Shown here piece after piece: positions 11,479-30,560 of a stretch of 64,000 nucleotides of DNA. The stretch lies in NCBI GenBank assembly GCA_016934735.1, contig JAFGSG010000105.1, forward strand, positions 1 through 64,000. The letters are read 5' to 3'. The DNA is from Spirochaetota bacterium. Lineage in GTDB: Bacteria > Spirochaetota > UBA4802 > JAFGDQ01. Position 1 is the stretch's first letter; each line of letters opens with the position of its first letter. The translations under genes were made by a program, and so were the position numbers. The notes under the pieces are model-generated. The model saw only the letters and a program-made list of their open reading frames with translations, searched no databases and was not told the origin of the DNA.

Positions 11479-12132
11479 TTAGCAAGATGTATCATGATTT
11501 TGAATGAGTTGCTGACATAAACGTACGCCTGTCATAGCGTCATTTGCCCATGCGTCTGCACCTGTAAAAACGCGTATTTGTTCATCCACCAGGCCGCCTA
11601 TGATAAATGATGGCACTGGCCGTATTTCTGAGCGTAGGAGTTCAATAGTAGTCCGCATGGGAGGATAGGAGGAATTAAGGAGACAGGAAAGGCCGACAAT
11701 ATGCGGTTTAATTTCTTTTGCTCTGGCAAGAAAATCGCCTGGCGGTGCATCTACACCGATATCCAATACAGTAAAACCATAACAACTTAACAGAACCCTA
11801 ATAATGTCTTTGCCGATGTAATGGATGTCTCCTTCGACTGTACCCAAAAGGACCCGTCCTCTTTCGTTCCCGGAAACCCGGCTTGTGATCAGAGGAAGAA
11901 CTTTTTCGCCTACCTGATGCATTATCTCTCCTGCCATGATTAATCCGGAGAGGAAGTATGACCCTTTTTCATACCGTTCGCCTACCATCCGGATTCCCTT
12001 CTGGCACTCTTCCATAAGAAGCAGAGGGTCAACACCTTCATTGATGCGTTTATCCACCTGATTTAGAACTGCATCCTCGTTTAAGTCAGCAATAAGATTA
12101 GAGAGCTCGGTTTGTGGTTCTGATGACTTCAT
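11479..12132 (-). CDS. corrinoid (cobalamin-binding) methyltransferase protein, MtbC/MtvC-like
   Basis: B12 base-off motif GDIHYIGKDI (DxHxxG), downstream GLSCLLNSS and FIIGGLVDEQ; B12-binding cap helices N-terminal. Confidence 0.92.
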   Translation of the reverse strand: MKSSEPQTELSNLIADLNEDAVLNQVDKRINEGVDPLLLMEECQKGIRMVGERYEKGSYFLSGLIMAGEIMHQVGEKVLPLITSRVSGNERGRVLLGTVEGDIHYIGKDIIRVLLSCYGFTVLDIGVDAPPGDFLARAKEIKPHIVGLSCLLNSSYPPMRTTIELLRSEIRPVPSFIIGGLVDEQIRVFTGADAWANDAMTGVRLCQQLIQNHDTSC

Positions 12133-12148
12133 TCCTTTCCCGTTGTAT

Positions 12149-12919
12149 TTATTGATTTTCCAAAATAATGTCGCTTGTTTCGCCCGATCCGACTCTTGTA
12201 TTAAAGCTGATCTTATCGCTTCTGCATAAAAAGTATCCCCAGCTTATCGGTCTGTTGTCAAAATCGAAGAAGATATGCTCAAGCCGGAATGAGGGTAAAG
12301 AAGTGTCTACCAATAAAAGATGGGCTTCAGTCTCACTGAGTATTGCAGGCTTTATGGATATCTCACCGCGTTTGAGACTTGCTTCGCCTCTGCCGGTAAA
12401 AAGACCATAAAGTGCGGTAACTCCCATTTCCGATTCAACGGTGGGATGGGTTGGATTGTAAATTAAATATTCCTGATGGTAAAATACCGGCTCCATATCC
12501 TTCATTATTAATCTGCGGATAAGTATGACCCTTGTATCCGGCTTAATGTTCAGCTTTAACGCTATATCTGCATTTGCTTTGATTATCTTGACTTCAAGCA
12601 ATTTGACTTTAGTATCAATATTTCCGCTGAAAATATCCTGCAACTCACGTGAACCGAATTTTACGGAGTGTAATTCGATTGCTTTTACAAAGGTGCCTCG
12701 TCCCTGCGTAGTGCTGACAACGCCTTCCTGAAGAAGGATGTTAATTGCTCTGCGAACCGTCATCGGACTTACATTATAAGACTTGCATAGCTGCGATTCA
12801 GATGGCAGGCGCCCGCCGGGGCGAAATTTGCCGGAATCTATCTGACTTCGCAGAATATTAACAAGCTGAATATAAGCGGGTTTGAACGATTTTCGATCTA
12901 TATTTGAATTATATTCCAT
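12149..12919 (-). CDS. GntR-family regulator (UTRA/HutC type)
   Basis: YIQLVNILRSQIDSGKFRPGGRLPSESQLCKSYNVSPMTVRRAINILLQEGVVSTTQGRGTFV plus UTRA-like C-terminal domain. Confidence 0.95.
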   Translation of the reverse strand: MEYNSNIDRKSFKPAYIQLVNILRSQIDSGKFRPGGRLPSESQLCKSYNVSPMTVRRAINILLQEGVVSTTQGRGTFVKAIELHSVKFGSRELQDIFSGNIDTKVKLLEVKIIKANADIALKLNIKPDTRVILIRRLIMKDMEPVFYHQEYLIYNPTHPTVESEMGVTALYGLFTGRGEASLKRGEISIKPAILSETEAHLLLVDTSLPSFRLEHIFFDFDNRPISWGYFLCRSDKISFNTRVGSGETSDIILENQ

Positions 12920-13063
12920 AATATGCTAGTAATTGAGTTGCTAAATGGAACTTGTATGTATATATATTGTTTTGTCAACTCGAAAAGTGTTATATCTATT
13001 AAAAAATATATTATGATGAAATATTGGAGATCATTTTTATTCATTATTATTATTTTTTTTATC

Positions 13064-13091
13064 TTGACAAACATCCCTATATAATATAATA
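13064..13091 (+). promoter_or_regulatory. candidate promoter for UroD-family gene (TTGACA 13064-13069, AT-rich -10)
   Basis: ttgaca followed at 15-17 nt by tataat/taataa-like hexamers; divergent from the GntR gene. Confidence 0.45.
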
Positions 13092-13229
13092 AGTTTAAAG
13101 GATGTAAATATTAATTTTTTTGACGATTATTTAATAATTGTCATATTTTATTAATGCTTTTAATAAAATCATTAAATTATAATAAAAATCATAGTTGTCT
13201 AATAATTACAATGAATAGGAGGGCTGGTT

Positions 13230-14480
13230 ATGAGTAAAACACCTGAAATGCTTTATAATGAACGGGAAAAAAGAGTGTTGGATGTTATAGCTTTAAAAAA
13301 ACCGGATAGAATACCGATTATGGTCATGTTCAGCTTTTTCCCCGCCAAATATTCAGGAATGACAACAGAAGAGGTCATGTACGATCCGGACAAACTCTGG
13401 AATGCTCAATGGAAGGTGATGACCGACTTTGAGCAGGATATGGAGCAGAATCCTTTTGCCCTGCGTTTCACGGGTCCTTTACTTGAAGCTCTTGATTTCA
13501 AACAATTGAAGTGGCCTGGTCATGGGGTAGGGCCTAATTATTCATATCAGTTTGTTGAAGGTGAATATATGGCCGCAGATGAATATGATCATTACCTTCT
13601 TGATCCTACTGATTTTATGATCCGTAAATACTGGCCTCGTATATTCGGCAACATGAAAGCGCTTGAGAAACTTCCTCCTCTTCATAATATTATAACATAT
13701 TCTATGGGTGTTCCGACAGGATTTGCTATTTTCGCCGCTCCTGATGTTCAGCAGGCTCTGGATACGTTCAAGAAAGCAGGAGAGAAGTCTGCTCAGCTTG
13801 CTTCATATGCCAAATCGTTCAGCGAAAAAACAAAGGAAGCCGGATTTCCATTGCAGACAGGCGGTTTCTGCCAGGCTCCCTTTGACACTCTCGGGGATTA
13901 TTTCAGGGGTATGAAAGGGCTTATGCTGGATATGTACCGAAGGCCGGATAAGATAGTCAAAGCATGTGAGAAGCTTTTTCACTTTATGCTTGAAATGGCA
14001 CTTAACGCGGCAAAGAACACAGGTAATCCCCGCATATTTATTCCGATTCATAAAGGAATCGATGGTTTTATGTCCGAGGAGCAGTTTAAGAAATTATTCT
14101 GGCCGACTCTAAGGGATCTGATGATTGAACTTATCAATAATGGTTTAACTCCATGTCCGTTATGGGAAGGGAACTGTACTTCGCGTCTTGAAATCATAAA
14201 GGATATTCCGGCCGGCAAAGCAATTTATTCTTTTGAAGCAACGGATATTTTTAAAGCAAAGGAAGTGCTCGGCGACACAGTATGCATCAGGGGAAATGTA
14301 CCCGCATCTATTCTGTCGACTGGTACGCCTGATGATGTGCGGGCATACTGTAAAAAATTGATTGATGTAGCCGGCAGGGACGGCGGATATATTATGGACG
14401 CGTCAACCGGACTTGATGATGCAAAAGTGGAGAATGTAAAAGCAATGTTTGATTTCACCAGAGAGTACGGTGCGTATTAA
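13230..14480 (+). CDS. uroporphyrinogen decarboxylase-family methyltransferase (candidate methyltransferase I)
   Basis: UroD/MtaA-like fold pattern: REKRVLDVIALKKPDRIPI, GGFCQAPFDTLGDYFRGMKGLMLDMYRRPDKI, CIRGNVPASILSTGTPDDV. Confidence 0.85.
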   Translation: MSKTPEMLYNEREKRVLDVIALKKPDRIPIMVMFSFFPAKYSGMTTEEVMYDPDKLWNAQWKVMTDFEQDMEQNPFALRFTGPLLEALDFKQLKWPGHGVGPNYSYQFVEGEYMAADEYDHYLLDPTDFMIRKYWPRIFGNMKALEKLPPLHNIITYSMGVPTGFAIFAAPDVQQALDTFKKAGEKSAQLASYAKSFSEKTKEAGFPLQTGGFCQAPFDTLGDYFRGMKGLMLDMYRRPDKIVKACEKLFHFMLEMALNAAKNTGNPRIFIPIHKGIDGFMSEEQFKKLFWPTLRDLMIELINNGLTPCPLWEGNCTSRLEIIKDIPAGKAIYSFEATDIFKAKEVLGDTVCIRGNVPASILSTGTPDDVRAYCKKLIDVAGRDGGYIMDASTGLDDAKVENVKAMFDFTREYGAY

Positions 14481-14613
14481 TACTTTACTTTTTTTATTTA
14501 TACTATTACAATAATGTATTTATTAAAGATAACAATATATTAAATTATAATATAAATCGGTAAATTCAGCATATTTTTCAATTTTTTATAACATGTGTTA
14601 TTGTAAAAAGACA

Positions 14614-14642
14614 TTGACAGTTTTTACAATAATATATGATAT
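14614..14642 (+). promoter_or_regulatory. candidate sigma70-type promoter for fhs (TTGACA, 17-nt spacer, TGATAT)
   Basis: ttgaca at 14614-14619 within a 12-bp perfect inverted repeat (14598-14609/14621-14632). Confidence 0.5.
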
Positions 14643-14713
14643 TTATACACAATGCTTAACTAATGTACTCTGTGTTTAAATAGTTTAAATTTATTTATTT
14701 AAGAGGTATTTCA

Positions 14714-16474
14714 ATGTATTACGATCCAACACAAATGACGGACTGGCAAATATCAGAAGCTGCCGAAGAAAGGATGAAAGTGTCCTTTCAGCTTCAGGAC
14801 GAACTGGGATTAAAATGGGAGGAAATGCTTCCCTTTGGAAGAGTCAGCAGGCTGGATTTTATAAAGATTCTGGAAAGGCTGGAAAAGAAAGAAGACGGCA
14901 AATATATAGATATAACTGCAATTACACCTACACCTTTGGGAGAAGGTAAGACCACAACCACTATGGGACTTATTGAAGGCCTTGGCAAGAGAGGCAAAAA
15001 AGTAGGGGGAGCCATAAGACAGCCCTCTACCGGCCCGACAATGAATGTAAAAGGAAGCGCGTCCGGCGGAGGCAATGCGCAGGTTATACCGCTAACTGAA
15101 TTCTCTCTTGGATTAACGGGCGATATTAATGCTGTAATGAATGCTCATAATCTTGCTATGGTTGCACTTACTTCCAGAATGCAACATGAGAGAAATTACG
15201 GAGATGACGAACTCGCAAAAAGAAATCTTAAGCGTCTTGACATTGATCCGAAAAGCGTTCAAATGGGATGGGTTATGGATTTTTGCGCCCAGAGCCTTAG
15301 GAATATTGCAATAGGTCTTGGCGGCAAGATGGACGGATATATGATGCAGTCCAGATTTGACATAGCTGTCAGCTCTGAAGTTATGGCAATTCTCTCAATT
15401 GCCAGAGATCTTAAAGATATGCGTGAAAGGATCGGAAAGATAACAGTTGCTTATTCTAAATACGGCAAACCCGTGACAACAGAAGATCTTGAGGTGGCCG
15501 GAGCTATGACAGCATTTATGAGGAATAGCATAAATCCGACCTTACTTCAGACAGTTGAAGGGCAGCCGGTAATGATCCATGCCGGGCCGTTTGCTAACAT
15601 CGCAATCGGGCAGTCGTCAATTATTGCGGATAGAGTCGGACTCAAACTCTTTGACTATCATGTCACTGAAAGCGGATTCGCGAGCGATATCGGTTTCGAA
15701 AAGTTCTGGAATGTGAAATGCCGCATAAGCGGTATGAAACCGCATGTGGCTGTAATCACGGCAACTATCAGGGCATTAAAGATGCACGGAGGAGGACCCA
15801 GAGTGGCTCCCGGGATCGCGCTGGCTCCGGAGTACAGAAAAAAGAATCTTGCTTTGCTTGAAAAAGGAATGCCAAACCTGCTTCACCATATTAAAATTGT
15901 AAAACAGTCAGGAATGCATCCGGTTGTATGTATAAACGGTTTTGCTACGGATACAAAAGAAGAAATCGCTCTTGTCCGGAGAATGGCTGAGAAAGCAGGT
16001 GCGCGCGTAGCGTTTTCGGAACATTGGATGAAAGGCGGTGAAGGCGCTTTGGAACTCGCGGATGCGGTAATTGATGCCTGCAATGAGAAAACGAAATTCA
16101 AGTATCTTTATCCGCTTGATATGCCTTTAAGAAAAAGAGTGGAATTGATCGCGAAAAAGATTTACGGTGCATCCGGGGTTTTATGGATTCCGGAGGCGGA
16201 AGCAAAAGCCAGGAAACTGGAAGCTGATCCTACAAAGAAGGATTACAATACAATGATGGTAAAGACTCATTTAAGCTTGTCACATGAGCCTGATCAGAAA
16301 GGAGTACCGAAAGGGTGGGTGCTTCCGGTAAGAGATATACTCGTATATGACGGCGCAAAATTTTTATGCCCGGTAACGGGTACTATTAGCCTTATGCCAG
16401 GCACTAGTTCTAATCCTGCTTACAGACAAATAGATGTTGATGTTGAAACTGGAAGGATTAAGGGTTTATTCTGA
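14714..16474 (+). CDS. fhs: formate--tetrahydrofolate ligase
   Basis: [48 protein letters not shown]. Confidence 0.97.
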
Positions 16475-16667
16475 TATATATTAAGATTTGTTTTTAATAA
16501 TCAGCCAACAGGTTCGATTCATAATGGTATTTGTTTTACCGGAGGTGTTGGCAAAGTGGAAACTTCCATTAAGATTTTTGGCATCAATGCTTTATCAACG
16601 CTCTTTATGTAACAGGTAACCGGTGCTAAAGACATGAAAAATCATTTAAAATTTTAAGGAGAAAACC

Positions 16668-17528
16668 ATGGAAACACGTGTAGTCAGTCACAAAGGCAAA
16701 GAAGTAATAATTGGAGATAAGCTCCCTACTGTTCTCATCGGTGAGAGAATAAATCCTTTCGGCAAAGGGCCGATAAAGGAGGGCATGATATCCGGCAATA
16801 TGGAACCTATCCGTCAGGAAGCAATAAAACAGGTGGAAACCGGCGCAGATATACTCATTGTAAGTGTGGCTGCTTTCGGTGTTGACGAAAATGTAATTTT
16901 TCCCAAAGCTGTTGAAGCTGTCATGAATGCGGTAGATGTTCCGATATGCCTTGAAAGCAGAAATCCGGTTGCACTTGAGAAAGCCCTGCAACTGGGATGC
17001 GGTAAGCCAATTATCAGTTCTGTAAATGGTGAAAAGGAGCTTTTGAATAATCTGCTGCCTCTGGTGAAAAAATATGATACTTCTCTTGTTATTCTGGCTT
17101 CTGACTCAAATGGCATACCCAATAATTCTCAAAAAAGACTACAGATACTGACAGATATTTGTAACAATGCAAAGGAAATGGGAATTGGCCCTGAAAGACT
17201 GCTCGCAGACTGCATAGCGGAATCCAGCGCTGTAAACAGTATGGCCGGTCTTCTTACAATGGAAACCATGCGAATGGTAAAAACAGACCTCGGCATTAAC
17301 TTTGTTCTGGGAGCCAGTAACGTCTCCTTCGGACTGCCGGACAGGCCGGTCATCAATGCTGTATTCCTCGCACTGGCAATAAATGCCGGGCTCAATTCGG
17401 CAATAGTAAATGCCGCAAAGATGAAACCTTACATTATGGCAACTGATCTGATGTTGGGCCTTGATCCAAAGGCGCGCCGTTACACTACTTATTTTAGAAA
17501 AATGAAAAGCCAGGCAGCTGCCAAATAA
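16668..17528 (+). CDS. methyltetrahydrofolate-type methyltransferase (pterin-binding, MtvA/MtgA-like methyltransferase II)
   Basis: DHPS-like TIM barrel: VLIGERINPFGKGPIKEGM, ETGADILIVSV, VPICLESRNPVALEKAL, FVLGASNVSFGLP, ATDLMLGLDPKA. Confidence 0.87.
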   Translation: METRVVSHKGKEVIIGDKLPTVLIGERINPFGKGPIKEGMISGNMEPIRQEAIKQVETGADILIVSVAAFGVDENVIFPKAVEAVMNAVDVPICLESRNPVALEKALQLGCGKPIISSVNGEKELLNNLLPLVKKYDTSLVILASDSNGIPNNSQKRLQILTDICNNAKEMGIGPERLLADCIAESSAVNSMAGLLTMETMRMVKTDLGINFVLGASNVSFGLPDRPVINAVFLALAINAGLNSAIVNAAKMKPYIMATDLMLGLDPKARRYTTYFRKMKSQAAAK

Positions 17529-17660
17529 AATTCAGTTACAGAATTATGGGAATAATGACTGTTGTTTCTGACTCTCTGTGATAAATCTACATCTAATAGT
17601 ATAGCAAGTATTCGAAATTGCTAAATATTATATCTGCGATATGGAGGAAGGGGTCTTGTT

Positions 17661-19529
17661 ATGAAGACATGTAAGGTTATTTTTGCGCCTTCGTCCAAAG
17701 AAGTTATTGTTAATGAAGGTTCAAGTATTCTTGATGCTGCAAGAACGGCAAATGTCTATATTGATTCTCATTGCAGCGGGAAGGGTACCTGCGGTAAATG
17801 CAAAGTACGCGTTATAGAAGGCAATGTTAATCCGGTAACCCTAAATGAGATTAAATTTATCAATGAGAGTGACAGAGAACTTGGTTTCAGGCTGGCATGC
17901 ATGACTATGGTCGACAGTGACCTTACGGTTTTTTTGCCGGGAGAAAATATTATTAAAGCCAAGACGGCAGACAAACTTTTTTCAAAAAGAACCGACGTAA
18001 ATAATCCCGCAGTAAAAAGTTATTATGTAGAACTTGTTTCCGGTAAAGACGATCACAGTCGTTCCTATCTTGATGAAATGAAGAAATATCTGTATGAGAG
18101 ATACGGACTGAAAGATTTGGACTGCGATATCAATGCACTTCAAAGTCTTGTGCATACAATGAAAGAAGGCAAAGGCAATGCTACTGTTTTTATCTGGATG
18201 GACAAAGAGATTATCAGCCTTCGGCCAGGGCAGGATGAAAAAAGTCTTGGTCTGGCTCTCGATATCGGAACGACCACAGTTGCTCTTTATTTATGCGACC
18301 TTCAAAACGGCGAAGTTATCTCAAGCGGATCAGTCACCAATCCGCAGGTGCTTTTCGGAACGGATATAATGTCGCGCATAAATTTTTCAGTCGATCATCC
18401 CGCCGTAGGAATAAAAAAGATGCAGACGGAACTAATACGTTCAGTGAATGCCATTGTGAACCGGATGACCGAAGACAACGGAGTGTCAAATCAGCAGATT
18501 CTGGACATGACGGTTGTAGGCAATACTGTTATGCACCATATTTTTCTAGGCATAGCACCGGATCATCTCGGACTCTGGCCGTTCAGCCCGTCTGTTCAGG
18601 AGTCAGTAAATGTGAAAGCGCGCGAATTCGGAATACGCATTAATCCTGCTGCTTATGTCCATGTACTGCCTGTTGAAGCGGGTTTTGTGGGCGCGGACAA
18701 TGTCGGCGTATTGCTTTCTGAAACACCTTACAATCAGGAGGAAATGTCTCTTACCATTGACCTTGGTACAAACGGCGAAATTGTACTCGGAAATAAAGAC
18801 ACACTCTTATCATGTTCGTGTGCAACAGGCCCTGCGCTTGAGGGAGCGCATATTGTAAGCGGCATGAGGGCATCGGCTGGAGCAATTGAAAAAGTAAGTA
18901 TAGATCCAGAGACTTTCGAGGTAGACTATAAAGTAATCGGTGCAGATGATCCCAACATTGAAAACGGCGATGTCATAAAACCTATAGGCATTTGTGGTTC
19001 AGGAATAATTGATACAGTAGCGCATTTTTTTAAGACAGGCCTGATTGGAGAAAGCGGAGCCTTTAATCAGAATATTAAAACTCCAAGGTTAAGGAAAGGG
19101 CATTCCGGTGTGATGGAATTTGTACTTGCATGGAAAGATGAGACTGCAACAGGGAATGATATTGTCTTAAGCCAGAAAGACGTACGTCAGATTCAACTGG
19201 CAAAAGGTGCTTTACATGGGGGATGCAGAATCTTAATGAGCCGTTTGAATATAACATCTATTAAGAAAATGGTGATTGCTGGAGCTTTCGGTATGCATAT
19301 TGACAAGGAAAATGCTCTTACTATAGGGCTGTTCCCGTGGTGTGAGCCGGAAAATATAATTATGGCAGGCAACTCTGCAGGCCATGGCGCATATTTGGCG
19401 CTTGTAAATATAGAAAAGAGAAATGAAGCCGATAGAATCGCAAAAGATGTCATCCACATTGAGTTGGCTCTGGAAAAGGAGTTTCAAACTCAATTTATGA
19501 AAGCTCTTTCAATACCGTATGAGCCATAA
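17661..19529 (+). CDS. RACo-like reductive activator of corrinoid protein (2Fe-2S plus ASKHA/DUF4445)
   Basis: 2Fe-2S motif CSGKGTCGKCKVRV...LACMT; ASKHA phosphate loop LGLALDIGTTTVALYL; LTIDLGTNGEIVLG; AGAFGMHIDKENALTIGLFP. Confidence 0.92.
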   Translation: MKTCKVIFAPSSKEVIVNEGSSILDAARTANVYIDSHCSGKGTCGKCKVRVIEGNVNPVTLNEIKFINESDRELGFRLACMTMVDSDLTVFLPGENIIKAKTADKLFSKRTDVNNPAVKSYYVELVSGKDDHSRSYLDEMKKYLYERYGLKDLDCDINALQSLVHTMKEGKGNATVFIWMDKEIISLRPGQDEKSLGLALDIGTTTVALYLCDLQNGEVISSGSVTNPQVLFGTDIMSRINFSVDHPAVGIKKMQTELIRSVNAIVNRMTEDNGVSNQQILDMTVVGNTVMHHIFLGIAPDHLGLWPFSPSVQESVNVKAREFGIRINPAAYVHVLPVEAGFVGADNVGVLLSETPYNQEEMSLTIDLGTNGEIVLGNKDTLLSCSCATGPALEGAHIVSGMRASAGAIEKVSIDPETFEVDYKVIGADDPNIENGDVIKPIGICGSGIIDTVAHFFKTGLIGESGAFNQNIKTPRLRKGHSGVMEFVLAWKDETATGNDIVLSQKDVRQIQLAKGALHGGCRILMSRLNITSIKKMVIAGAFGMHIDKENALTIGLFPWCEPENIIMAGNSAGHGAYLALVNIEKRNEADRIAKDVIHIELALEKEFQTQFMKALSIPYEP

Positions 19530-28970: not shown

Positions 28971-29855
28971 ATGGCATTTATAAGAATAGGCGAAAATTTA
29001 AATGTAATGTCCAAAGTGCTCGGCCCGGCAATGAAAGAGAGGAATGCCAAGCCAATACAGGAGATGGCGGTCCGGGAGACTGAGGCAGGTGTGGATTATA
29101 TAGAGGTAAACATAGGCCCTGCGAAAAAAGCCGGTGCTGAAATGATGGAATGGCTGGTAAAGACCATCCAGGAAGTTACAGATACGCCATTATCTCTTGA
29201 TACAACCAACATGGAAGCTACCGAGGCCGGGTTGAAAGTAGCAAAAAATCCTCCCTTAATTAACTCGGTCTCTCTTCAGACATCAAGGATTGATAAAGGC
29301 CTGCAGATGGCAAAGCAGTATGATGCTGACTTCATCGCTCTTTTATGGAGCGACGGCGGGATGCCGAGAGATGTTAATGAGCGCGCAATGCATGCTGTTG
29401 ATTTTATTCAAAAAGTGACTGACATAGGATTATCCACGGATAAAATGTGGATCGATCCGATTCTATCGCCTATATCGGTTGAAATAAATCAGGTAAAAGC
29501 ATGTGTGGAATTCATGGGAATGCTTAAAGATATTGCTCCCGGAATTAAATCGACAGGAGGCTTGTCGAATGTGTCGAACGGCGTGCCTGATGAGCTCCGG
29601 ACTTATCTCAACATTCCTTATGTGATCATGCTCATTAAGAACGGTCTTACATCTGCAATAGTGGACGCTTTTGATAAAAATCTGACAGAGGCTGTACACG
29701 GCAGGAATGACAGTTTAGTCCGGCTTATCAGCAAAGTAGCTGACGGCGAAAAGGTAGACACGAGCAGTTTATCTGACCTTGAAATTAAATATGTTAAAAG
29801 CGCCAAGGTGCTTATGGGAGAAATACTGTTTTCCAATGCATGGCTTGAAGTATAA
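28971..29855 (+). CDS. acsE: methyltetrahydrofolate:corrinoid/iron-sulfur protein methyltransferase
   Basis: IGENLNVMSKVLGPAMKERN, VDYIEVNIGPAKKAG, LSLDTTNMEATEAGLKVAK, STGGLSNVSNGVP. Confidence 0.94.
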   Translation: MAFIRIGENLNVMSKVLGPAMKERNAKPIQEMAVRETEAGVDYIEVNIGPAKKAGAEMMEWLVKTIQEVTDTPLSLDTTNMEATEAGLKVAKNPPLINSVSLQTSRIDKGLQMAKQYDADFIALLWSDGGMPRDVNERAMHAVDFIQKVTDIGLSTDKMWIDPILSPISVEINQVKACVEFMGMLKDIAPGIKSTGGLSNVSNGVPDELRTYLNIPYVIMLIKNGLTSAIVDAFDKNLTEAVHGRNDSLVRLISKVADGEKVDTSSLSDLEIKYVKSAKVLMGEILFSNAWLEV

Positions 29856-29879: not shown

Positions 29880-30560
29880 GTGGCTTCTAAAGATAATATA
29901 ACTGATAGTATCTATTATGCTCCGGGAATTAAATTACCAAAACAGGATAATTATGAGACAGCCTATAATGAGGCTGCCGGAGAGCTTTTAAAACGGGATT
30001 TAAAGGATATCGCTTTAAAAAGCGGAGCGCAATTAATTCAACAGGATGCTTCTTCAATTCTGGCCCTCACTTTTTTGTATAATGATATATACATTGAATA
30101 TCCTCAGATCAGATTATATTACAAAAATAAAGATACAGAGCCGGGTCTGTGGTATAAAATTTTAATACTGCATTATTTGATTCAGGCTAAGGGCAGTCCC
30201 GCCAGCGGCGAGCAGATAACTTTTAAACAAATAACAGGCGGTCTTGCGTATTATCCGGCTTTTCACAGAAGAACAATCAAACCACTTATAAAATCATTTG
30301 AAAATGATTTCAATAAATATATTATAGCAGCAGAAAGAATCGGAGGAGTGAAATCCGATATCAGTAAATATTCTGTTTTCTTCCGGGTTTTTCCGAGAGT
30401 TTCTGTTCTGCTTAATTTATGGGAAGGCGATGAGGAATTGCCTTGTGACGGCAATATAGTTTTTGATTCATCGATTACTGATTATTTAACTACTGAAGAT
30501 ATTACTGTTTTGTGCAATATTATTACTTTAACTATAATTAAAGAAGGTGCCGGAGAGTAA
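29880..30560 (+). CDS. DUF3786-like protein in acs cluster
   Basis: GTG start; reads as the DUF3786 family (GLWYKILILHYLIQAKG...TGGLAYYPAFHRRTIKPLI); directly followed by cooC. Confidence 0.7.
   Translation: MASKDNITDSIYYAPGIKLPKQDNYETAYNEAAGELLKRDLKDIALKSGAQLIQQDASSILALTFLYNDIYIEYPQIRLYYKNKDTEPGLWYKILILHYLIQAKGSPASGEQITFKQITGGLAYYPAFHRRTIKPLIKSFENDFNKYIIAAERIGGVKSDISKYSVFFRVFPRVSVLLNLWEGDEELPCDGNIVFDSSITDYLTTEDITVLCNIITLTIIKEGAGE

Follow-up and report, generated by a model that had tools for sequence, protein, structure and literature searches.

A corrinoid-dependent methyltransferase module imported into a spirochaete Wood–Ljungdahl locus, with a proposed regulator–corrinoid sensor pair

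The closest described relatives of the system analysed here are the corrinoid-dependent methyltransferase systems of acetogens, whose enzymes CdmB, MtoB, MtvB, OdmB and VdmB are placed in the UroD superfamily, CdmB being the haloalkane methyltransferase I of Acetobacterium (PMC13222342). The regulation of the 26 methyltransferase systems of Acetobacterium dehalogenans is largely unexplored, and the regulator of cdm has not been identified (PMC13222342). In Eubacterium limosum, B12-binding proteins, transporters and GntR regulators usually accompany the genes of the MttB family (PMC4791908). The AerR–CrtJ pair shows that a transcription factor can be steered by a cobalamin protein that stands alone (PMC9144470); no report of such a regulator–corrinoid sensor pair was found in the literature on GntR regulators with corrinoid proteins. 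In this study, a block of genes at positions 11479–19529 of a 64,000-nucleotide stretch of spirochaete DNA (the window) was investigated by comparative sequence analysis. The window lies on contig C137, which is 65,143 bases long, in a draft genome of 3.55 Mb and 91% completeness.

The block comprises six genes, all intact open reading frames, and Pfam and NCBIfam support each of the six assignments at the domain level (Table 1). An earlier reading made from the letters alone (the sequence-only reading) had the genes and their coordinates right but counted five. We favour, with modest confidence, the reading that this is an imported methyl-utilisation module whose methyl carrier is encoded remotely, on contig C55, and whose GntR regulator and corrinoid protein form a two-gene sensor. 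Names taken from Pfam, NCBIfam and similar catalogues express resemblance, and the functions given below are predicted; the genomes compared were mostly drafts, some of them represented by contigs only.

Judged by protein similarity, phylogeny and gene order, the block was acquired horizontally, apparently from a bacterium resembling a sulfate reducer, and its edges are sharp. All six proteins (GntR, corrinoid protein, methyltransferase I (MTI), Fhs, methyltransferase II (MT II) and RACo) were closest to those of Thermodesulfobacteriota-type genomes, with identities of 54–81%. The genes on both sides, hisG before the block and cooC-folD-acs after it, are spirochaetal: HisG matched G002, a genome of the same family, best (87%), and FolD, AcsD, CooS, AcsB, AcsC and AcsE matched G001 best (74–84%). 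Fhs was 76–81% identical to proteins of Thermodesulfobacteriota-type genomes and 66–70% identical to those of kin with the same Wood–Ljungdahl locus (70% for G001), and it was nested in the Thermodesulfobacteriota-type group of the tree (support 99/98); the window genome gave no other fhs match. The other module genes were absent or distant in kin. GC content carried no mark of import.

Gene order in the kin delimits the inserted part. In G001, of the same family, the order is fhs-cooC-folD-acsD-cooS-acsB-acsC-acsE; the acs locus of G008 has the same order minus folD, and that of G021 minus cooC. Neither MT II nor RACo was found between fhs and the next gene in these three genomes, and in G002 hisG adjoins fhs-cooC-folD with no module gene in between. 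G001, which is 96% complete, gave no match to MTI, the corrinoid protein or RACo, and its sole match to MT II was AcsE. G546, a Thermodesulfobacteriota-type genome that need not be the donor itself, has the order corrinoid protein-MTI-fhs on one contig and folD-MT II-GntR-corrinoid protein on a second, and thus fhs travels with the module. Because the orthologous operon reads corrinoid protein-MTI-fhs, the link to the Wood–Ljungdahl pathway that the sequence-only reading proposed is real. The conservation of gene neighbourhood on which that reading could be checked was also found, with the module genes co-conserved in relatives. The arrangement is not due to chance, since other phyla have the same set of genes and the limits of the block coincide with the edges of the import. 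The window is also a clear example of the joint entry of fhs and a methyl-utilisation module into a native Wood–Ljungdahl locus. A module beside a Wood–Ljungdahl locus is a recurrent arrangement, because three further genomes (L284, L285 and L286) combine a GntR–corrinoid pair, an MTI–corrinoid operon and RACo with adjoining acs genes (AcsD-CooS-AcsB or AcsE); in L284 the GntR–corrinoid pair is followed by a DUF1638 gene.

The corrinoid proteins of these systems fall into two kinds. The window GntR was searched against 345 genomes from the phylum of G207 and 349 from the phylum of G211, and 57 loci were retrieved. A corrinoid gene lay directly downstream of the GntR gene, on the same strand, at 56 of these 57 closest relatives' loci outside the spirochaete phylum. 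Within the phylum, four GntR matches were paired with a corrinoid protein and four others, all weak, were unpaired. The loci were gathered through similarity to GntR, MTI or the corrinoid protein, and the pairing rates therefore hold for this subfamily and not for GntR regulators at large. A second corrinoid gene stood beside a UroD methyltransferase at 28 of the 32 loci with at least 5 kb on both sides. Some corrinoid genes on GC-rich contigs, such as 5183–5794 in L009, are missed by longest-reading-frame calling and were located by homology. In a tree of 83 corrinoid proteins, from which five long-branched rows were excluded, the GntR-linked proteins (CP_R) formed one side of a branch with support 96/82, and the linkage label changed only twice; a larger FastTree agreed in outline and contained two GntR-linked clades. 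The window protein fell within the GntR-linked clade and was 60–63% identical to the GntR-linked proteins of G546, G399 and G207.

The two kinds also differ in sequence and in co-divergence. The cobalamin motif D-H-G was kept in 94–100% of CP_R proteins. Residues A155, D157, K160, G170-R171 and W209 (numbering of the corrinoid comparison) were near-invariant in the carrier proteins (CP_M) and not kept in CP_R, which has W195 and C206 of its own. Pairwise distances of GntR correlated with those of CP_R at r = 0.89 and with those of CP_M at r = 0.62; the adjacency control, CP_M against the MTI encoded next to it, gave r = 0.59, and the bootstrap intervals of the differences excluded 0. The lineage to which the block's corrinoid protein belongs nearly always occurs together with a gene regulator, and the protein therefore probably senses the methyl supply instead of carrying it.

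A candidate for the carrier itself was found elsewhere in the genome. In the nearest orthologous systems with an intact upstream region (G546, G399, G362 and G207), a different corrinoid gene directly precedes MTI, and these systems also have the present GntR–corrinoid pair in their genomes. The ortholog of that carrier in the window genome is C55:28427–29050, which has no MTI beside it and is 73% identical to the corrinoid protein preceding MTI-fhs in G546. On this orthology, the methyl carrier is most likely the C55 protein and not the corrinoid protein of the block. The sequence-only reading had all four parts of an O-demethylase/Mtv-type system plausibly present in the block; MTI, MT II and the activator stand, whereas the corrinoid protein belongs to the regulator-linked clade and no carrier-clade protein is encoded beside MTI. 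With the likely carrier on another contig, the block alone is therefore probably not a complete four-component system.

Two candidate regulatory DNA elements bear on how the parts might be connected. The palindrome AAGTTATATATATAACTT was over-represented upstream of this clade's GntR genes (log-likelihood 89.6 versus 32–47 in shuffles). When a matrix built from the GntR-upstream sites, none of them from C55, was run over 175,538 bases of the window genome's own sequence, the top-ranking site lay 72 bp upstream of the C55 carrier gene. No other single observation hints as strongly that the window regulator may control the remote carrier. The second element, TTGACA-N3..5-TCCCTATATAA, was found upstream of the window MTI, of the corrinoid protein-MTI-fhs operon in G546 and of the MTI-side operon in G384, as well as upstream of acs genes in G374 and G446. 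It occurred in six of the 345 genomes from the phylum of G207, five of which were among the 19 carriers of this GntR, and the reversed pattern occurred in none. In G399 it precedes a TRAP solute-binding protein that is 63% identical to one in the MTI locus L009 and 57% identical to one beside MTI on contig C117 of the window genome. The element is taken as a shared, putative regulatory site. Searches for other operators gave nothing usable: the HutC-type operator GTnTAnAC was not enriched upstream of the regulators; for another group of loci, mainly from Bacillota, the best 14-mer always sat at the same distance within the beginning of the coding sequence, and the 18-mer was rich in GC and not very consistent. 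No operator is therefore claimed for that group.

Several observations weigh against the sensor reading. The operator-like site AACTTGTATGTATATATA in the window is weak (score 11.2, with shuffles of the region reaching 17). The pattern of the 21-bp element was defined with the help of four of the five GntR-carrying genomes that have it, and only the fifth, G399, is new. The co-divergence of GntR and its corrinoid protein is explicable by tight linkage alone, although the equally adjacent CP_M–MTI pair shows less of it. The GntR-linked corrinoid protein adjoins an MTI gene at six of the 32 loci and could therefore carry methyl groups there, and the window MTI has no other corrinoid gene beside it. 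These last two points also speak for the alternative, put forward in the sequence-only reading, that the block's corrinoid protein is the working carrier for the block's MTI and that GntR is a conventional regulator, binding the substrate through its UTRA domain. The protein keeps its cobalamin motif, and the GntR–corrinoid pair is divergent to the MTI gene. We nevertheless consider this alternative unlikely: the protein groups apart from the MTI-linked carriers, its clade does not keep near-invariant carrier residues (A155, D157, K160 and G170-R171), the nearest orthologous systems possess both a different corrinoid gene before MTI and this GntR–corrinoid pair, and the ortholog of that MTI-preceding carrier is present on C55. 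The window also warns against default annotation of corrinoid genes adjoining regulators as methyl carriers. A second full cassette of the window genome (C117, L061, 9139–16011) has TRAP DctP, a 160-aa open reading frame, DctM, MTI and a corrinoid protein on one strand, divergent from another GntR–corrinoid pair.

Homology identifies the pterin-binding protein as methyltransferase II and the activator as RACo. The sequence-only reading held MT II to be distinct from acsE at 28971, which is indeed a separate gene; the two proteins align at 28% identity. MT II was 74% identical to its counterpart in G546 and 60% to that in G207, with homologs in MTI clusters at 60% (L009) and 48% (L065). Its best solved match is 4o0q, whose sister entries 4O1E and 4O1F were used to place methyl-tetrahydrofolate and tetrahydrofolate in the MT II of the CdmB authors (PMC13222342). 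The activator matched RACo 3zyy over its full length and was 54% identical to the RACo of an MTI-corrinoid protein-RACo cluster in Syntrophobacterales (L028). Their assignment to the module, also made in the sequence-only reading, is borne out by these closest homologs in MTI clusters and by co-conservation in relatives. A competing account would make both proteins ordinary CODH/ACS parts, a second AcsE and an AcsV, unrelated to the UroD protein; both genes run in the direction of acs transcription, and AcsV is the best NCBIfam match of the activator, which has the RACo domains (489 bits, the cut-off of 800 not being reached). This account is improbable and was rejected from the loci of kin, in which the same acs locus lacks both genes and, in G001, the genome as a whole offers only AcsE; the homologs in MTI clusters and the foreign origin shared with the rest of the block argue in the same direction.

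Comparable gene sets occur more widely. One cluster (L201:9073–14647) consists of a corrinoid protein, MT II, a short URO-D protein (288 aa) and RACo opposite an MTI gene. Systems with UroD methyltransferase clusters are usually described from anaerobes. In Alphaproteobacteria, such clusters include a corrinoid protein, RACo and MT II of their own (L015:7812–17350, and L014, L016, L017, L019 and L020), and L015 additionally contains methylenetetrahydrofolate reductase, an amidohydrolase and an AMP-binding ligase.

Profile and tree evidence identifies the UroD protein as a methyltransferase I like OdmB, MtvB, MtoB and CdmB, predicted to transfer a methyl group to Co(I), in agreement with the substrate-specific role given to it in the sequence-only reading. 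CdmB was its sole solved relative in a single-sequence search (E 1e-41), and the profile search gave 4e-68 for CdmB versus 3e-6 for HemE and 0.004 for MtaA. In the tree, it lies inside a 20-member methyltransferase clade with HemE and MtaA branching elsewhere, and CdmB, the only characterised methyltransferase I in a comparison that excluded OdmB, VdmB, MtvB and MtoB, falls outside this clade with support 96/91 (C-terminal part only). The AlphaFold model (pLDDT 92.5) matched UroD structures in a Foldseek search of the PDB; CdmB was not in the list, and the model therefore adds the UroD fold only. Orthologs with 69–72% identity were present in seven Thermodesulfobacteriota-type genomes, with the orders corrinoid protein-MTI-MT II in G399, G362 and G207 and MTI-corrinoid protein-RACo in L028. 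The proposal that the protein is HemE or an MtaA-type enzyme, which would leave the block without a substrate methyltransferase, has the Pfam URO-D domain (1e-22) and the fold in its favour but can practically be dismissed, given scores far below the NCBIfam cut-offs (37/244 bits for PRK06252, the coenzyme M methyltransferase, 29/400 for MtaA and 19/303 for HemE), a preference for CdmB of about 60 orders of magnitude in the profile search, and the tree. Grouping with HemE or MtaA, or lack of co-conservation, would have spoken against the sequence-only reading; the protein groups with neither and the genes are co-conserved, so neither objection applies. Chloromethane, suggested by analogy with CdmB, is not claimed as the substrate because the protein lies outside the CdmB lineage. 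The window genome encodes several additional UroD methyltransferases. One, on C59 (L056, 1923–10367), is an MTI paralog with 60% identity whose neighbours are a glycyl-radical-type activating enzyme, two family III CoA-transferases, an MFS carrier and TRAP DctM; no corrinoid gene was recognised near it.

Together these parts suggest the following scheme. An organic acid would be taken up by a TRAP carrier, the linked TRAP transporters suggesting this class of substrate. MTI would move the methyl group of the probably carboxylate-bearing substrate to the C55 corrinoid carrier, and MT II would pass it to tetrahydrofolate, with RACo re-reducing the carrier and so rescuing Co(II). The resulting methyl-tetrahydrofolate would enter acetyl-CoA synthesis or oxidation, the imported module having been set into the spirochaete's Wood–Ljungdahl locus with replacement of fhs there too. 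The block's corrinoid protein, methylated or not, may alter the grip of GntR on its operators through physical contact, so that the pair would report the methyl supply and switch both the MTI-fhs operon and the remote C55 carrier gene. GntR and the corrinoid protein are accordingly proposed, by analogy with CrtJ–AerR, as a two-gene methyl sensor. A wider version, plausible but somewhat less likely than not, is that in Spirochaetota, Thermodesulfobacteriota and Bacillota alike a corrinoid protein dedicated to the GntR/UTRA regulator serves it as a detachable sensor, which MTI would methylate when substrate is present and whose methylation or cobalt state would switch the regulator.

Table 1. 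Genes and candidate DNA elements of the block, with positions in the window
Feature	Position	Strand	Basis and remarks
Regulator-linked corrinoid protein (CP_R), 217 aa	11479–12132	-	B12-binding_2 and B12-binding domains; motif GDIHYIG; proposed co-sensor of GntR
GntR/UTRA transcription regulator, 256 aa	12149–12919	-	Pfam GntR and UTRA; 16 nt upstream of the corrinoid gene
Weak operator-like site AACTTGTATGTATATATA	12949–12966		Partial match to palindrome AAGTTATATATATAACTT of relatives' regulators
TTGACA-N4-TCCCTATATAA element	13064–13084	+	Upstream of the methyltransferase I gene
UroD-superfamily corrinoid-dependent methyltransferase I (MTI; predicted substrate enzyme), 416 aa	13230–14480	+	URO-D domain, profile search, tree
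fhs, formate-tetrahydrofolate ligase	14714–16474	+	Identity to relatives, tree; imported with the module
Methyltransferase II (methylcorrinoid:tetrahydrofolate methyltransferase), 286 aa	16668–17528	+	Pterin_bind; best solved match 4o0q
RACo-type ATP-dependent reductive activator of corrinoid proteins, 622 aa	17661–19529	+	2Fe-2S and ASKHA domains; full-length match to 3zyy

Farther along the window, a DUF3786 protein is encoded at 29880–30560, between acsE and a second cooC, and members of this family are also encoded within acs loci of related spirochaetes (L141, L142 and L143).

If the proposed pair operates as outlined, transcription would be governed by a direct reading of the methyl-corrinoid pool. 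Acetogens and related bacteria have dozens of methyltransferase systems to choose from; a conserved regulator–corrinoid pair would provide a direct handle on this choice and would allow substrates to be assigned through regulons.

Compared with the Cdm, Odm/Vdm, Mtv and Mto systems, the module has a methyltransferase I of the same superfamily, an MT II of the same family (4o0q) and a RACo-type activator, and the delivery of methyl groups to tetrahydrofolate is presumably the same. It differs in that its methyltransferase I belongs to a clade apart from CdmB, the likely carrier is encoded outside the block, fhs lies inside it and a GntR–corrinoid pair is divergently arranged. The activator has the domains of AcsV/RACo of the CODH/ACS cluster and resembles 3zyy over its full length, but it stays below the AcsV cut-off, and the nearest relative found belongs to an MTI cluster and not to an acs one. 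With AerR–CrtJ and PpaA–PpsR of purple bacteria, the GntR–corrinoid pair shares a stand-alone cobalamin protein (helix bundle and Rossmann fold) encoded with the transcription factor that it modulates (PMC9144470); in the window, the likeness consists of the 16-nt gap, the pairing at 56 of 57 loci and the retained cobalamin motif, and the interaction is predicted. The purple-bacterial pair joins a PAS/HTH protein, CrtJ, to a light sensor, AerR, whereas the window factor is a GntR/UTRA regulator, not a CrtJ/PpsR homolog, whose partner comes from the methyltransferase corrinoid family; the pair would therefore work like the AerR system without being a member of it.

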